A stretch of DNA of 64,000 bases, from the NCBI RefSeq assembly GCF_014284255.1, contig NZ_JACOFV010000005.1:1-64000 (forward strand), in the 5' to 3' direction. Positions 55,696 to 59,146 of this stretch are shown piece by piece. The notes beneath the pieces are model-generated. The model was given only the letters and a program-made list of their open reading frames with translations. It was not told the DNA's origin and did no database searches. Position numbers and translations under genes: made by a program. Origin of the DNA: Cognatundibacterium jejuense (GTDB lineage Bacteria > Pseudomonadota > Gammaproteobacteria > Burkholderiales > Burkholderiaceae_D). Every line of letters starts with the position of its first letter. The first letter of the stretch is position 1.

Positions 55696-55911
55696 ATGTC
55701 AAAGCTAGTCGATTATCTGAATCACCTTGACCAAAATGCTGACGCACGTGCAGCGCATTCGAAAGACCCGCATGCTGCCATGACACATTTTGGTTTGTCG
55801 CATGAGGAACAGGCAGCAGTGAAAAGTCGTGACAAGAATCATATCGCAAAAGTAGCTGGCATTGATCCTGCTGAAGTCGGAGCAGTTGAAATTCCTGAGG
55901 CAACTCACTAA
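55696..55911 (+). CDS. Predicted split-borosin precursor peptide (SonA-like)
   Basis: A 71-residue peptide. Residues 1-56 form a helical, LigA-like segment: SKLVDYLNHLDQNADARAA, then MTHFGLSHEEQAAVKSRD. The tail IDPAEVGAVEIPEATH is short and flexible. The Shewanella oneidensis SonA precursor is about the same length (recalled from memory) and has an equivalent N-terminal borosin-binding domain followed by a C-terminal core with N-methylated residues. By position, the core here would be residues about 60-71 (GAVEIPEATH at 62-71). The matching methyltransferase is encoded at 57710. The start has only a weak upstream site (TAGGT). Modification itself is inferred. Confidence 0.72.
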   Translation: MSKLVDYLNHLDQNADARAAHSKDPHAAMTHFGLSHEEQAAVKSRDKNHIAKVAGIDPAEVGAVEIPEATH

Positions 55912-55941
55912 AAAATCGAAGTAGTTAGCCAGTACGCATTT

Positions 55942-57687
55942 ATGCATTTATCCTTTTTTAAAAAAATTTGGTGTGCACTGGCTTTTCTGGCGTATTTTTT
56001 CGCGTCTGTTTCATTTGCTGCTGATGTTGTCAATGCAGACCAGTTGCTTTCAGAAACAAGTGCATTGTTAAGAGCTTCTCCTGAAAAAGCCGAAAAAAAT
56101 ATTCGAAAGCTCGAAGAAGTTTTTAATTCACTGACTAAATCCCAACAAGAAAAGTTTTATGTCCAAAAGGCGGCATTTCTTGGTTCAATGGGACGAAACA
56201 AAGAACGCATTGAGTTTGTCGAAGTTAGTATTAAAAATGTCGTCAATGTAGAGATACAAGTTAAACTTTTGTACCAGTTATCGACTGGTTACACGAACCT
56301 TGGCATGTTTGAAAGCGCATTAAATGCGATGAATCAAAGCATAGCCTTATTACCCAAATTAACTGACGTTAATACCAAACTTTACACGCTTCAGTCGGCT
56401 GTATCGCTATTCAATACACTAAAAGCTTTTGACCAATCACTACTCTACGTAGAACAAATAAGCGCTTTTTCCGATCGTAAGAACTCTATTTCAAGCTGCG
56501 TATCTTTAGCGGACAAAGTTGAAATTGAGTTTTTAAGAGGGAATCGTGAAGTTGCGAAAAATTTTTTGCCGGATGCTATTCAGGACTGTAAGCATGGCGG
56601 CAATCAATTTATGGTCAAACTCCTTAATGCACTTGATGCTCTTGACCTTATAAAATCTTCAAATTTCCCTGCTGGCATTTCAAGTGCAAAGGCCTTGCTT
56701 GATGAAGCAGATGATAATATTAAGAAAACGAATTATTTTATAGAGTTGGAAAATGCCTTAGCTCGCGCGTATATTGAAACAGGCGATTTAAAGCAAGCCG
56801 ATTTTTACGCAAATGAAGCTTACAAATATTCCAACAATTCAAAAGTTTATCTGCTGATAGAGCAGGCGAACGAAACCATGTCAAAAATCAAGCGTGCGCA
56901 AGGGCAGTATGTTGCGGCGCTGGAATTTGATGACACTGCTCTGGAATTTAAAAATAAATTATTGGACGAGCAGCTACAAAAAAATATCGCCTATCAGCGT
57001 GTTAAATTCGATATGCAAGACAAGGCTAATCAATTGACCTTGCTTGAGCAAAAAAATAAATTGCTGTCGATAGAAAAACAACTAGATAAAAAAAATAACG
57101 AAGTCTTGTTGCTATTCATCGGTCTGATTGTCGTTGCATTGTTGTTGGTTGGTGTGTGGCTGTGGAAAGTTATACAGCAAAAAAATATCTTTAAGCGTCA
57201 TGCGCAAGTCGATGCGCTGACACAAATCAGTAACCGTCGGCATTTTATCGATATCACTACAGCGGCGGTCGCTGAGCGAACTGCGCCGATCAGCCTGATC
57301 CTGTTCGATATGGATTTCTTTAAAAAAATCAACGATAACTTTGGTCACCCGACCGGTGATTGGGTATTGATTCATGTATGTCAGGCAGTGACCGAAGTAT
57401 TGCGTAAAGGTGATATGTTTGGGCGTTTAGGCGGCGAAGAATTTGCAATTTGCATGCCTGCGGCGGATACCCATGTCGCCAAACAACTGGCAGAGCGTTG
57501 CCGTTTAGCGATTGCTGCAATTGATACCGAACCGAGCGGATTTCGTTTTCCTTTGACCGCCAGTTTTGGTATTGCAACCATTGACACCTACACCGTCAGC
57601 ACGTTTGAAGCTTTAATGGAATCTGCTGATAAAGCTCTGTATAAGTCCAAAGCTGATGGTCGCAATTGTGTCTCAGTGTTTGAGTGA
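55942..57687 (+). CDS. TPR-containing membrane diguanylate cyclase (GGDEF)
   Basis: A 581-residue protein with a signal peptide (about residues 1-28, SVSFAADVV). TPR-like helical repeats follow across about residues 35-375, then a coiled region, one membrane helix at about 387-409 and a cytoplasmic GGDEF domain with the active motif GGEEF at residues 497-501. The repeats therefore face the periplasm and the cyclase the cytoplasm. It lies between the predicted borosin precursor (30 bp upstream) and its methyltransferase (22 bp downstream), apparently in one transcript. No ribosome binding site is clear at the start. Whether it senses the peptide is unknown. Confidence 0.9.
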   Translation: MHLSFFKKIWCALAFLAYFFASVSFAADVVNADQLLSETSALLRASPEKAEKNIRKLEEVFNSLTKSQQEKFYVQKAAFLGSMGRNKERIEFVEVSIKNVVNVEIQVKLLYQLSTGYTNLGMFESALNAMNQSIALLPKLTDVNTKLYTLQSAVSLFNTLKAFDQSLLYVEQISAFSDRKNSISSCVSLADKVEIEFLRGNREVAKNFLPDAIQDCKHGGNQFMVKLLNALDALDLIKSSNFPAGISSAKALLDEADDNIKKTNYFIELENALARAYIETGDLKQADFYANEAYKYSNNSKVYLLIEQANETMSKIKRAQGQYVAALEFDDTALEFKNKLLDEQLQKNIAYQRVKFDMQDKANQLTLLEQKNKLLSIEKQLDKKNNEVLLLFIGLIVVALLLVGVWLWKVIQQKNIFKRHAQVDALTQISNRRHFIDITTAAVAERTAPISLILFDMDFFKKINDNFGHPTGDWVLIHVCQAVTEVLRKGDMFGRLGGEEFAICMPAADTHVAKQLAERCRLAIAAIDTEPSGFRFPLTASFGIATIDTYTVSTFEALMESADKALYKSKADGRNCVSVFE

Positions 57688-57709
57688 TTAATTAATTTTT
57701 TTTCCTTTT

Positions 57710-58546
57710 ATGACGAATCAAAAAGTTGGACAACTTGTCTGCGTAGGAACAGGTATGCGCATGGCAGGGCAGTTGACGCCGTTGGCGAAAAGTTATATCG
57801 AATCTTTTGATATTGTGATCGCAGCCGTACCTCATATTTTTACGCGTCGATGGTTGCAGGGTATCGCCAAAGAATACATATGTCTGAATGATCACTACGA
57901 AGATACTAAGATCGAAGGCAAAAATCGTCGCGACACTTATCGCCGTATGGCAGATACTATTTTAAAAGAAGTCCGCGCCGGCAAGCGTGTTTGCGCGGCT
58001 TTTTACGGACATCCCGGCATTTTTGCTTGTATCTCACACATGGCGATTACCGATGCGCGTAAAGAGGGGTATGTCGCGCACATGGAGCCAGGTATTTCAG
58101 CGTTGGATTGTCTGGTCGCCGATCTTGGGATTGATCCAGGATCACGCGGTATGCAGTCGATGGAAGCGACGCAGTTTATGATTTATGAACGGGTGATCGA
58201 TCCGTCTGCGATGTTCATCGTCTGGCAAATTGGTCTCGCTGGTGATCTAACCTTAAAGCGTTACGACACTGAACCGGCGCACTTGCAAATTATTACCGAC
58301 AAATTGGCACTCACGTATTCACTCGATCATGAAGTGATTTTGTATGAAGCTGCAACCAACCCCATAGAGCAAAACCGCATCGAAAAAATCCGTTTGGGTG
58401 ATTTGCCGAAGGCGAATTTGAAACAAATTACGACCCTGGTGATTCCGGCTGAGCATGCTTTAAAAGTGGATCAAAAAGTGATGGATCAGTTGAAGGCGTT
58501 GGAATTGGCACGTGCTGCGGCAAACGAGGTAACTGAGGCAGCGTAG
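57710..58546 (+). CDS. Split-borosin alpha-N-methyltransferase (SonM-like, tetrapyrrole methylase fold)
   Basis: A 278-residue SAM-dependent methyltransferase. The N-terminal Rossmann start LVCVGTGMRMAGQLTPLAKS, GKNRRDTYRRM at about residues 71-80, AAFYGHPGIFACISHMAITD at about 96-115, MEPGISALDCLVADLGIDPG at about 125-144 and VWQIGLAGDLTLKRYDTEPA near 175 match the SonM family recalled from Shewanella. These enzymes bind a small precursor in trans and methylate backbone amide nitrogens in its C-terminal core. CbiF-like precorrin methylases share the fold, but the NRRDTY and HMAITDA contexts favour the borosin type. No strong ribosome binding site is visible, only T-rich sequence. Confidence 0.88.
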   Translation: MTNQKVGQLVCVGTGMRMAGQLTPLAKSYIESFDIVIAAVPHIFTRRWLQGIAKEYICLNDHYEDTKIEGKNRRDTYRRMADTILKEVRAGKRVCAAFYGHPGIFACISHMAITDARKEGYVAHMEPGISALDCLVADLGIDPGSRGMQSMEATQFMIYERVIDPSAMFIVWQIGLAGDLTLKRYDTEPAHLQIITDKLALTYSLDHEVILYEAATNPIEQNRIEKIRLGDLPKANLKQITTLVIPAEHALKVDQKVMDQLKALELARAAANEVTEAA

Positions 58547-58741: not shown

Positions 58742-59146
58742 ATGAAAAAATTGATTAAAAGCGCTGTAGTTGGTCTGGCTCTGGTTGGCGGTATTTCTGC
58801 TGCTTACGCTGAGGGTGTTGATACTTCTGTAGAAGGTATTTTTAATGCGCTGACTTCCAGTGCAAATCTGCAGGCAACGGTAGATGGTCTGGTTGCTGGT
58901 GGTGCGAACCCACAATCTATCGTATCGGTTGCTGCTGCAGCTGGTATTCCACTCGATGCGGTAAAGCAATTGCAAGTCTGCACAAATTCTGCCGCTGCTG
59001 ATGCAACAGTATTGAGCGCTTCTTGCCTCAGACAAAAAAGCGTCGTGACCGCTTACTCTGCTGGTGTGAACGATCCGATGAAATTTTTGCCTGCCTCTGC
59101 TGCTGGTAAACAAAACAAGCAAGAAACAAAAACTGAATTTAAGTAA
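58742..59146 (+). CDS. Small secreted hypothetical protein
   Basis: A 134-residue precursor with a clear signal peptide (MKKLIKSAVVGLALVGGISA, cleavage near AYA). The mature protein is rich in Ala, Val and Ser, with LVAGGANPQSIVSVAAAAGI and two cysteines (CTNSAAADATVLSASC) that may form a disulfide. It starts about 195 bp after the borosin methyltransferase on the same strand, has a good GAGGAG upstream and is followed by a terminator. Function is unknown; association with the peptide locus is only positional. Confidence 0.75.
   Translation: MKKLIKSAVVGLALVGGISAAYAEGVDTSVEGIFNALTSSANLQATVDGLVAGGANPQSIVSVAAAAGIPLDAVKQLQVCTNSAAADATVLSASCLRQKSVVTAYSAGVNDPMKFLPASAAGKQNKQETKTEFK

Follow-up and report, generated by a model that had tools for sequence, protein, structure and literature searches.

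The DNA analysed here is a 64,000-nt stretch of Cognatundibacterium jejuense (the window; positions 1 to 64,000 of contig NZ_JACOFV010000005.1, RefSeq assembly GCF_014284255.1) in which a borosin cassette is encoded, i.e., a precursor of a putatively backbone N-methylated peptide, a membrane sensor with tetratricopeptide repeats (TPR) and a GGDEF domain, and a SonM-type methyltransferase. The three open reading frames (ORFs) lie in series on the plus strand (Table 1), with gaps of 30 bp from the peptide stop to the sensor ORF and 22 bp from the latter to the methyltransferase start. The original prediction had recognized a split-borosin pair at 55696..58546, with the peptide directly ahead of the methyltransferase. 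Both ORFs are present with the motifs and C-terminal tail quoted, but a complete same-strand ORF of 581 aa, with TPR and GGDEF domains, intervenes. The predicted span takes in this gene, which the accompanying description left out. The omitted gene is in fact a steadier partner of the precursor than the methyltransferase is.

Table 1. Features of the borosin cassette (window positions)
Feature	Position	Strand	Basis or content
Split-borosin precursor, 71 aa, LigA-like leader plus C-terminal tail	55696..55911	+	Pfam LigA; profile A2 against SonA
Borosin binding domain of precursor, about residues 1-55			
Presumed core, residues 62-71 (GAVEIPEATH)	55879..55908	+	Variable tail; gapless alignment to SonA core 62-71
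Membrane TPR-GGDEF sensor, 581 aa (predicted diguanylate cyclase)	55942..57687	+	Pfam GGDEF, TPR_2, TPR_8
Sensor TPR region, about residues 26-375, presumed periplasmic	56017..57066	+	Contains C186 and C216
Presumed membrane helix of sensor, about residues 388-409	57103..57168	+	Hydrophobic stretch in sequence
GGEEF active-site motif of sensor, residues 497-501	57430..57444	+	RxxD (488-491) five residues upstream
SonM-type peptide backbone N-methyltransferase (by homology), 278 aa	57710..58546	+	SonM and TP_methylase matches

Homology gives good support to the assignment of precursor and methyltransferase to the split-borosin family, and neither is a chance ORF. In a search against solved structures the methyltransferase matched SonM over residues 7-258 (E 4.3e-80, 272 bits), the next-best solved relatives after the SonM entries being fused fungal borosin enzymes (E 2e-37 to 3e-44); its Pfam TP_methylase match has an E of 2.3e-19. 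Of the nine SonM residues to which passages of PMC8429565 assign roles in holding core and cofactor, eight are kept (Y58, R67, Y71, Y93, F99, E146, W166, and Q167), Q178 being replaced by R. A cobalamin-pathway tetrapyrrole methylase, the alternative named in the original prediction, was rejected: SonM is the best match, and four NCBIfam cobalamin models scored far under their cutoffs (13 to 21 bits versus 163 to 391), the top NCBIfam match being YabN at 44 bits against a cutoff of 525. The enzyme is the sole match in its own genome at E 0.001. Relatives at 27 to 40% identity were found in nine plasmid records.

The 71-aa peptide matches Pfam LigA (E 2.2e-6, 28.1 bits versus a cutoff of 25.3); among six other precursors tried, one exceeded the cutoff, two matched weakly, and three did not match. 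From the single sequence the match to SonA is weak (E 0.05), and a profile of 36 precursors (A2), which includes the window precursor and Shewanella-like rows, matches SonA with an E of 3e-22. The precursor is the sole match in its own genome at E 1. The pair is of type IV, as predicted: the methyltransferase is encoded apart from the precursor, and the latter is a separate short protein with a helical borosin binding domain as judged by the LigA and profile matches. Precursor and methyltransferase do not adjoin, the sensor gene lying between them; according to passages of PMC8429565, the first systems were located via adjacency, while the paper defines the class by separate encoding.

The claim that the tail is the core is partly supported, in that variability is concentrated in the last 15 residues, behind a conserved leader. 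Across 21 Undibacterium-type loci (210 pairs), median pairwise identity is 0.61 for residues 1-56 versus 0.20 for residues 57-71. SonA is methylated at residues 63 and 65 (passages of PMC8429565), which correspond to A63 and E65 in the window. Among 22 related precursors, however, 18 have I, L, V, M, or F at residue 64 and 11 have one of these at residue 66, compared to only 2 and 3 for residues 63 and 65, so that the hydrophobic pattern is displaced by one residue relative to SonA. Because hydrophobic residues sit at 64 and 66 and seldom at 63 and 65, V64, and perhaps I66, would be the likelier methylation sites; P67 has no amide hydrogen.

The intervening 581-aa protein has all the features of a membrane TPR diguanylate cyclase, i.e., TPR repeats, a membrane helix, and a GG(D/E)EF motif, and cyclase activity is predicted. 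Pfam detected GGDEF at E 1.4e-40, and TPR_2 and TPR_8 at their cutoffs. A membrane helix was found in 81 of the 83 GGDEF sensors scored, GGEEF is invariant in alignment A1, and the RxxD motif is presumably the inhibitory site of the cyclase. Within the TPR region, C186 and C216 are invariant in 40 aligned sensors, and a C-x(27-34)-C pair is present in 77/83 GGDEF sensors, 6/11 histidine kinase sensors, and 5/5 sensors without an output domain (one of the five being a fragment of the broken L053 sensor and another, in L255, cut by a contig end). This cysteine pair, the membrane helix, and the protein's start, which reads like a signal peptide, together suggest that the TPR region is periplasmic. 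In L053 the sensor gene is in pieces and no precursor was recognized, yet the methyltransferase frame is open.

Within the genus, the methyltransferase was found in 19/43 genomes and the first 400 residues of the sensor in 18/43, all of them among the 19. The TPR part of the sensor hence occurs in 18/19 genomes with the methyltransferase versus 0/24 without (Fisher 3e-11, uncorrected for kinship). In the exception, G033, a contig end truncates the methyltransferase. The empty site was inspected in 20 of the 24 methyltransferase-less genomes: the upstream M14 carboxypeptidase gene was there in 20/20, the whole sensor in 0/20, and the small protein encoded downstream of the cassette in 10/20 (one weak). 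A precursor at a contig end was seen in one of these regions (L127); the arrangement in G025, a genome counted as methyltransferase-less, is M14 and then a precursor where the contig ends. In one further region, a piece corresponding to methyltransferase residues 1-37 (L136:2147-2257, oriented by M14) separates M14 from the small exported protein and is a trace of a lost cassette. The cassette genes are thus mostly gained and lost together.

Searches at E 1e-20 detected the methyltransferase in 17/294 genomes of the family, 3/399 of an order sample, and 10/369 of a class sample, own genome included. Among 23 Undibacterium-type loci (Solimicrobium and others included, fragment L059 excluded), 22 hold the sensor, the remaining one being cut by a contig end, and a recognized precursor lies upstream of 22 of their 25 sensors. 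The gene following the 30 precursors of these loci is a sensor in 22 cases, a methyltransferase in 7, and another precursor in 1. A second precursor at L002:5647-5976 has a frame that continues into what by eye resembles a GGDEF-domain end; it is probably the remnant of a repeated precursor-sensor unit.

The association extends well beyond the genus. SonM-like genes at E 1e-40 were found in 61/247, 119/250, and 4/19 genomes of three other gammaproteobacterial orders, and from matches at this threshold or better we hand-picked 60 loci, aiming at roughly a single locus for each genus, although some genera are represented twice. TPR sensors are present in 58 of the 60 (absent from L254 and L259). 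Their 71 sensors comprise 58 with GGDEF, 9 with a histidine kinase, and 4 with neither output (L207, two in L208, and one in L255 that is cut by the contig end); for eight proteins examined with Pfam, the L249 fusion described below among them, the result was TPR plus GGDEF, TPR plus histidine kinase, or TPR alone. A precursor lies directly upstream of 49/71 sensors by profile, or 59/71 if ten recognized by eye are counted. Conversely, of the 57 precursors, 49 are followed by a sensor, 4 by a methyltransferase, 3 by a further precursor, and 1 by neither. Two gene orders occur, methyltransferase-precursor-sensor and precursor-sensor-methyltransferase, and L249:4246-6771 encodes an 841-aa natural TPR-GGDEF-methyltransferase fusion with a precursor in front. 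Precursor and sensor are duplicated as units in L051, L240, L241, L256, and L262. Among the class-sample loci, L063 to L065 (methyltransferases at 45 to 46% identity) have TPR sensors and nine distant loci, grouped post hoc by identity (28 to 39%), have none, indicating that the sensor link tracks the SonM-like branch.

Could the sensor be a mere bystander, placed beside the borosin genes by chance or shared transfer, with the peptide serving an unrelated purpose? The cassette is patchy (19/43 genus genomes) and occupies one site beside conserved genes, so linked genes could travel together, and the association tests are uncorrected for kinship. This explanation nevertheless seems very improbable to us, given a link that holds in 58/60 picked loci, in three other orders and with differing gene orders, and given that the pairs also exist without a neighboring methyltransferase.

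The latter situation is found in the order of genome G1060, where a search with residues 1-400 of the L243 sensor at E 1e-15 gave matches in 98/250 genomes: 91/119 with a methyltransferase versus 7/131 without (Fisher 8e-34, uncorrected for kinship). Among the matches listed (at most 150 for either gene), 120/150 sensors lie within 10 kb of a listed methyltransferase and 30/150 do not. The 30 are covered by 29 regions, in which tblastn at E 1e-5 found no methyltransferase within the fetched stretches; L298 and L317 to L321 end at contig ends, and a nearby methyltransferase is possible there. In 17 of the 29 regions a profile-recognized precursor stands directly upstream of the sensor, and further look-alike precursors were seen by eye upstream in L320 to L322. 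The genomes of all 20 precursor-bearing regions have a methyltransferase elsewhere. Precursor and sensor are therefore often retained as a pair without an adjacent enzyme. In L317, L318, and L323 the sensor has no recognized precursor and the genome no methyltransferase. Overall, the receptor gene is found behind the peptide gene both across lineages (49/57) and away from the maturation enzyme (17/29), a pattern that would be expected of a signaling pair.

We lean toward the view, with modest confidence, that the precursor supplies a peptide for which the TPR sensor is the receptor, maturation being the task of a shared SonM-type enzyme and the ligand setting the cyclase output. The methyltransferase would recognize the helical leader and N-methylate backbone amides in the C-terminal core, the families being assigned by homology. 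The freed core would then reach the periplasm or the outside, where it would be bound by the TPR region of the sensor whose gene directly follows that of the precursor; binding would alter the diguanylate cyclase output, hence cyclic di-GMP. Precursor and sensor are the conserved pair, and the methyltransferase, which can lie elsewhere in the genome, would be a maturation enzyme that acts in trans. The chief argument for sensing is that the TPR part is retained next to the precursor whatever the output domain (GGDEF, histidine kinase, or none). More tentatively, and with rather less assurance, the SonM-type borosins of gammaproteobacteria could represent a widespread signaling chemistry in which backbone-N-methylated peptides have their own periplasmic TPR receptors (cyclase or histidine kinase) and several channels per genome share one or a few SonM-type enzymes. 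Methylated ligands that set sensor output would, if true, add a new class to the known bacterial signals, and N-methylation would gain a natural purpose, presumably protease resistance or membrane passage.

The same gene order and co-occurrence are predicted if the TPR region reads another periplasmic cue and the sensor sets borosin production via cyclic di-GMP or a phosphorelay. The sensor type can indeed occur without the peptide, as shown by six regions from methyltransferase-bearing genomes and three from methyltransferase-less genomes, all with no recognized precursor. On the other hand, the constancy of the TPR part beside the precursor, with a varying output domain, speaks against such a regulator, and the persistence of pairs away from the methyltransferase would be unexpected if methylation were what is regulated. 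We consider this explanation, in which the borosin itself would act elsewhere, e.g., as a metallophore or antibacterial, unlikely.

Median pairwise identity is 0.61 for the leader, 0.20 for the core, 0.46 for the TPR region, 0.58 for GGDEF, and 0.74 for the methyltransferase (0.73 for M14, 14 loci). Distances of core and TPR region are correlated with methyltransferase and GGDEF removed (r 0.39, p 0.001); the correlation of core and GGDEF given the others is lower (r 0.21, p 0.03), and that of core and methyltransferase is negative (r -0.13, p 0.90). The leader correlates with the TPR region (r 0.42, p 0.0005) and with the methyltransferase (r 0.30, p 0.007). The leader, which is less variable than the tail and shows equally strong covariation with TPR, would also suit a precursor that works whole and intracellularly, its helical domain docking on the cytoplasmic part of the sensor or on the methyltransferase with no release. 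The cassette yielded neither a dedicated protease nor a dedicated exporter, a weak point in favor since the comparison covered the window genes only. However, a hypervariable tail and a backbone methyltransferase would be superfluous for a docking protein, and we judge this explanation improbable.

Several observations weigh against the peptide-receptor interpretation. As leader-TPR covariation matches that of core and TPR, the covariation of precursor and sensor reflects joint history and not core recognition. Among tandem precursors, 5/12 pairs sharing one sensor and 2/6 pairs with their own sensors are core-similar above ~96% of background pairs, proportions that leave the two classes inseparable. 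The methyltransferase directly follows the precursor in 7/30 Undibacterium-type cases, 12/71 sensors in the 60 picked loci have no visible precursor, and in L311 to L316 the sensor has no recognized precursor even though the genomes bear a methyltransferase; only LigA-like or profile-recognized leaders are detectable as precursors. Against solved structures, the TPR region gave a single match at E 0.54 and none better than E 0.5. Finally, methylation, binding, export, and release are steps that we infer.

Some precursors depart from the window type. Those in the order of G1060 (e.g., L218, L243, and L247) have, unlike the window precursor, a short hydrophobic stretch and then a long acidic tail, which may be a follower removed by cleavage. 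Possible multi-core precursors are seen in L243:6950-7285, with a repeated TGTQMPS-like stretch, in L237, with a 94-aa precursor containing repeated VFAA, and in L253:6834-7673, with three tandem precursors of similar tails ahead of one sensor. L261:1928-2470 (oriented by the methyltransferase) encodes a 180-aa protein in which a borosin-type leader runs into what by eye resembles a response-regulator receiver domain, either a relic of a precursor-histidine kinase unit or a true fusion.

The genes flanking the cassette were rejected as members of it. The upstream M14 carboxypeptidase is in 41/43 genus genomes, cassette present or not, and was not found in the stretches beside L002, L006, L046, L048, L052, L057, and L058. 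Downstream, window positions 58742-59146 encode a 134-aa protein with a signal peptide-like start and no Pfam match, which adjoins M14 in genomes with or without the cassette and follows M14 in 10/20 cassette-less regions. Promoter and terminator scans returned no more sites than in shuffled sequences.

Known systems offer partial parallels. The RRNPP regulators of Gram-positive bacteria are cytoplasmic peptide-binding TPR receptors for unmethylated peptides, with no membrane helix or GGDEF domain; by description, they resemble the present unit in that a small peptide gene stands beside a TPR receptor gene. Control of a GGDEF cyclase by a TPR region is described for RcbB of Vibrio vulnificus in passages of PMC12282931, although RcbB, unlike the window sensor, is predicted to be cytoplasmic and its partner RcbA is a TPR protein, not a small peptide. 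GGDEF is also named among borosin architectures in the Figure 1 legend of PMC11395268. Both that architecture and ours link GGDEF with borosin genes, the GGDEF protein being separate in the window and fused in L249. In the literature searched, there was no match for borosin together with tetratricopeptide or for backbone N-methyl together with diguanylate cyclase, and the kinase passage retrieved for borosin plus histidine kinase concerned another peptide. The GGDEF association, and perhaps also the pairing, may already have been published.

The closest relative is SonA/SonM of Shewanella oneidensis, the type IV system of PMC8429565, whose main text makes no mention of GGDEF or tetratricopeptide. 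According to the same source, as of 2021 no split-borosin pathway had been tied to a final natural product; the sensor gene behind most precursors offers a concrete function, with methylated peptides as ligands for cyclic di-GMP or phosphorelay output. In L205, the methyltransferase is a very close relative of SonM (E 1e-144) and is followed by the precursor and then by a TPR-GGDEF gene; a gene order of this type would be expected in Shewanella. The window cassette shares with SonA/SonM a SonM-type enzyme, a separate 71-residue LigA-like precursor with a short C-terminal core, and the residues that hold core and cofactor. It differs in the core sequence, in the replacement of SonM Q178 by R, and in the sensor gene that splits precursor from methyltransferase.

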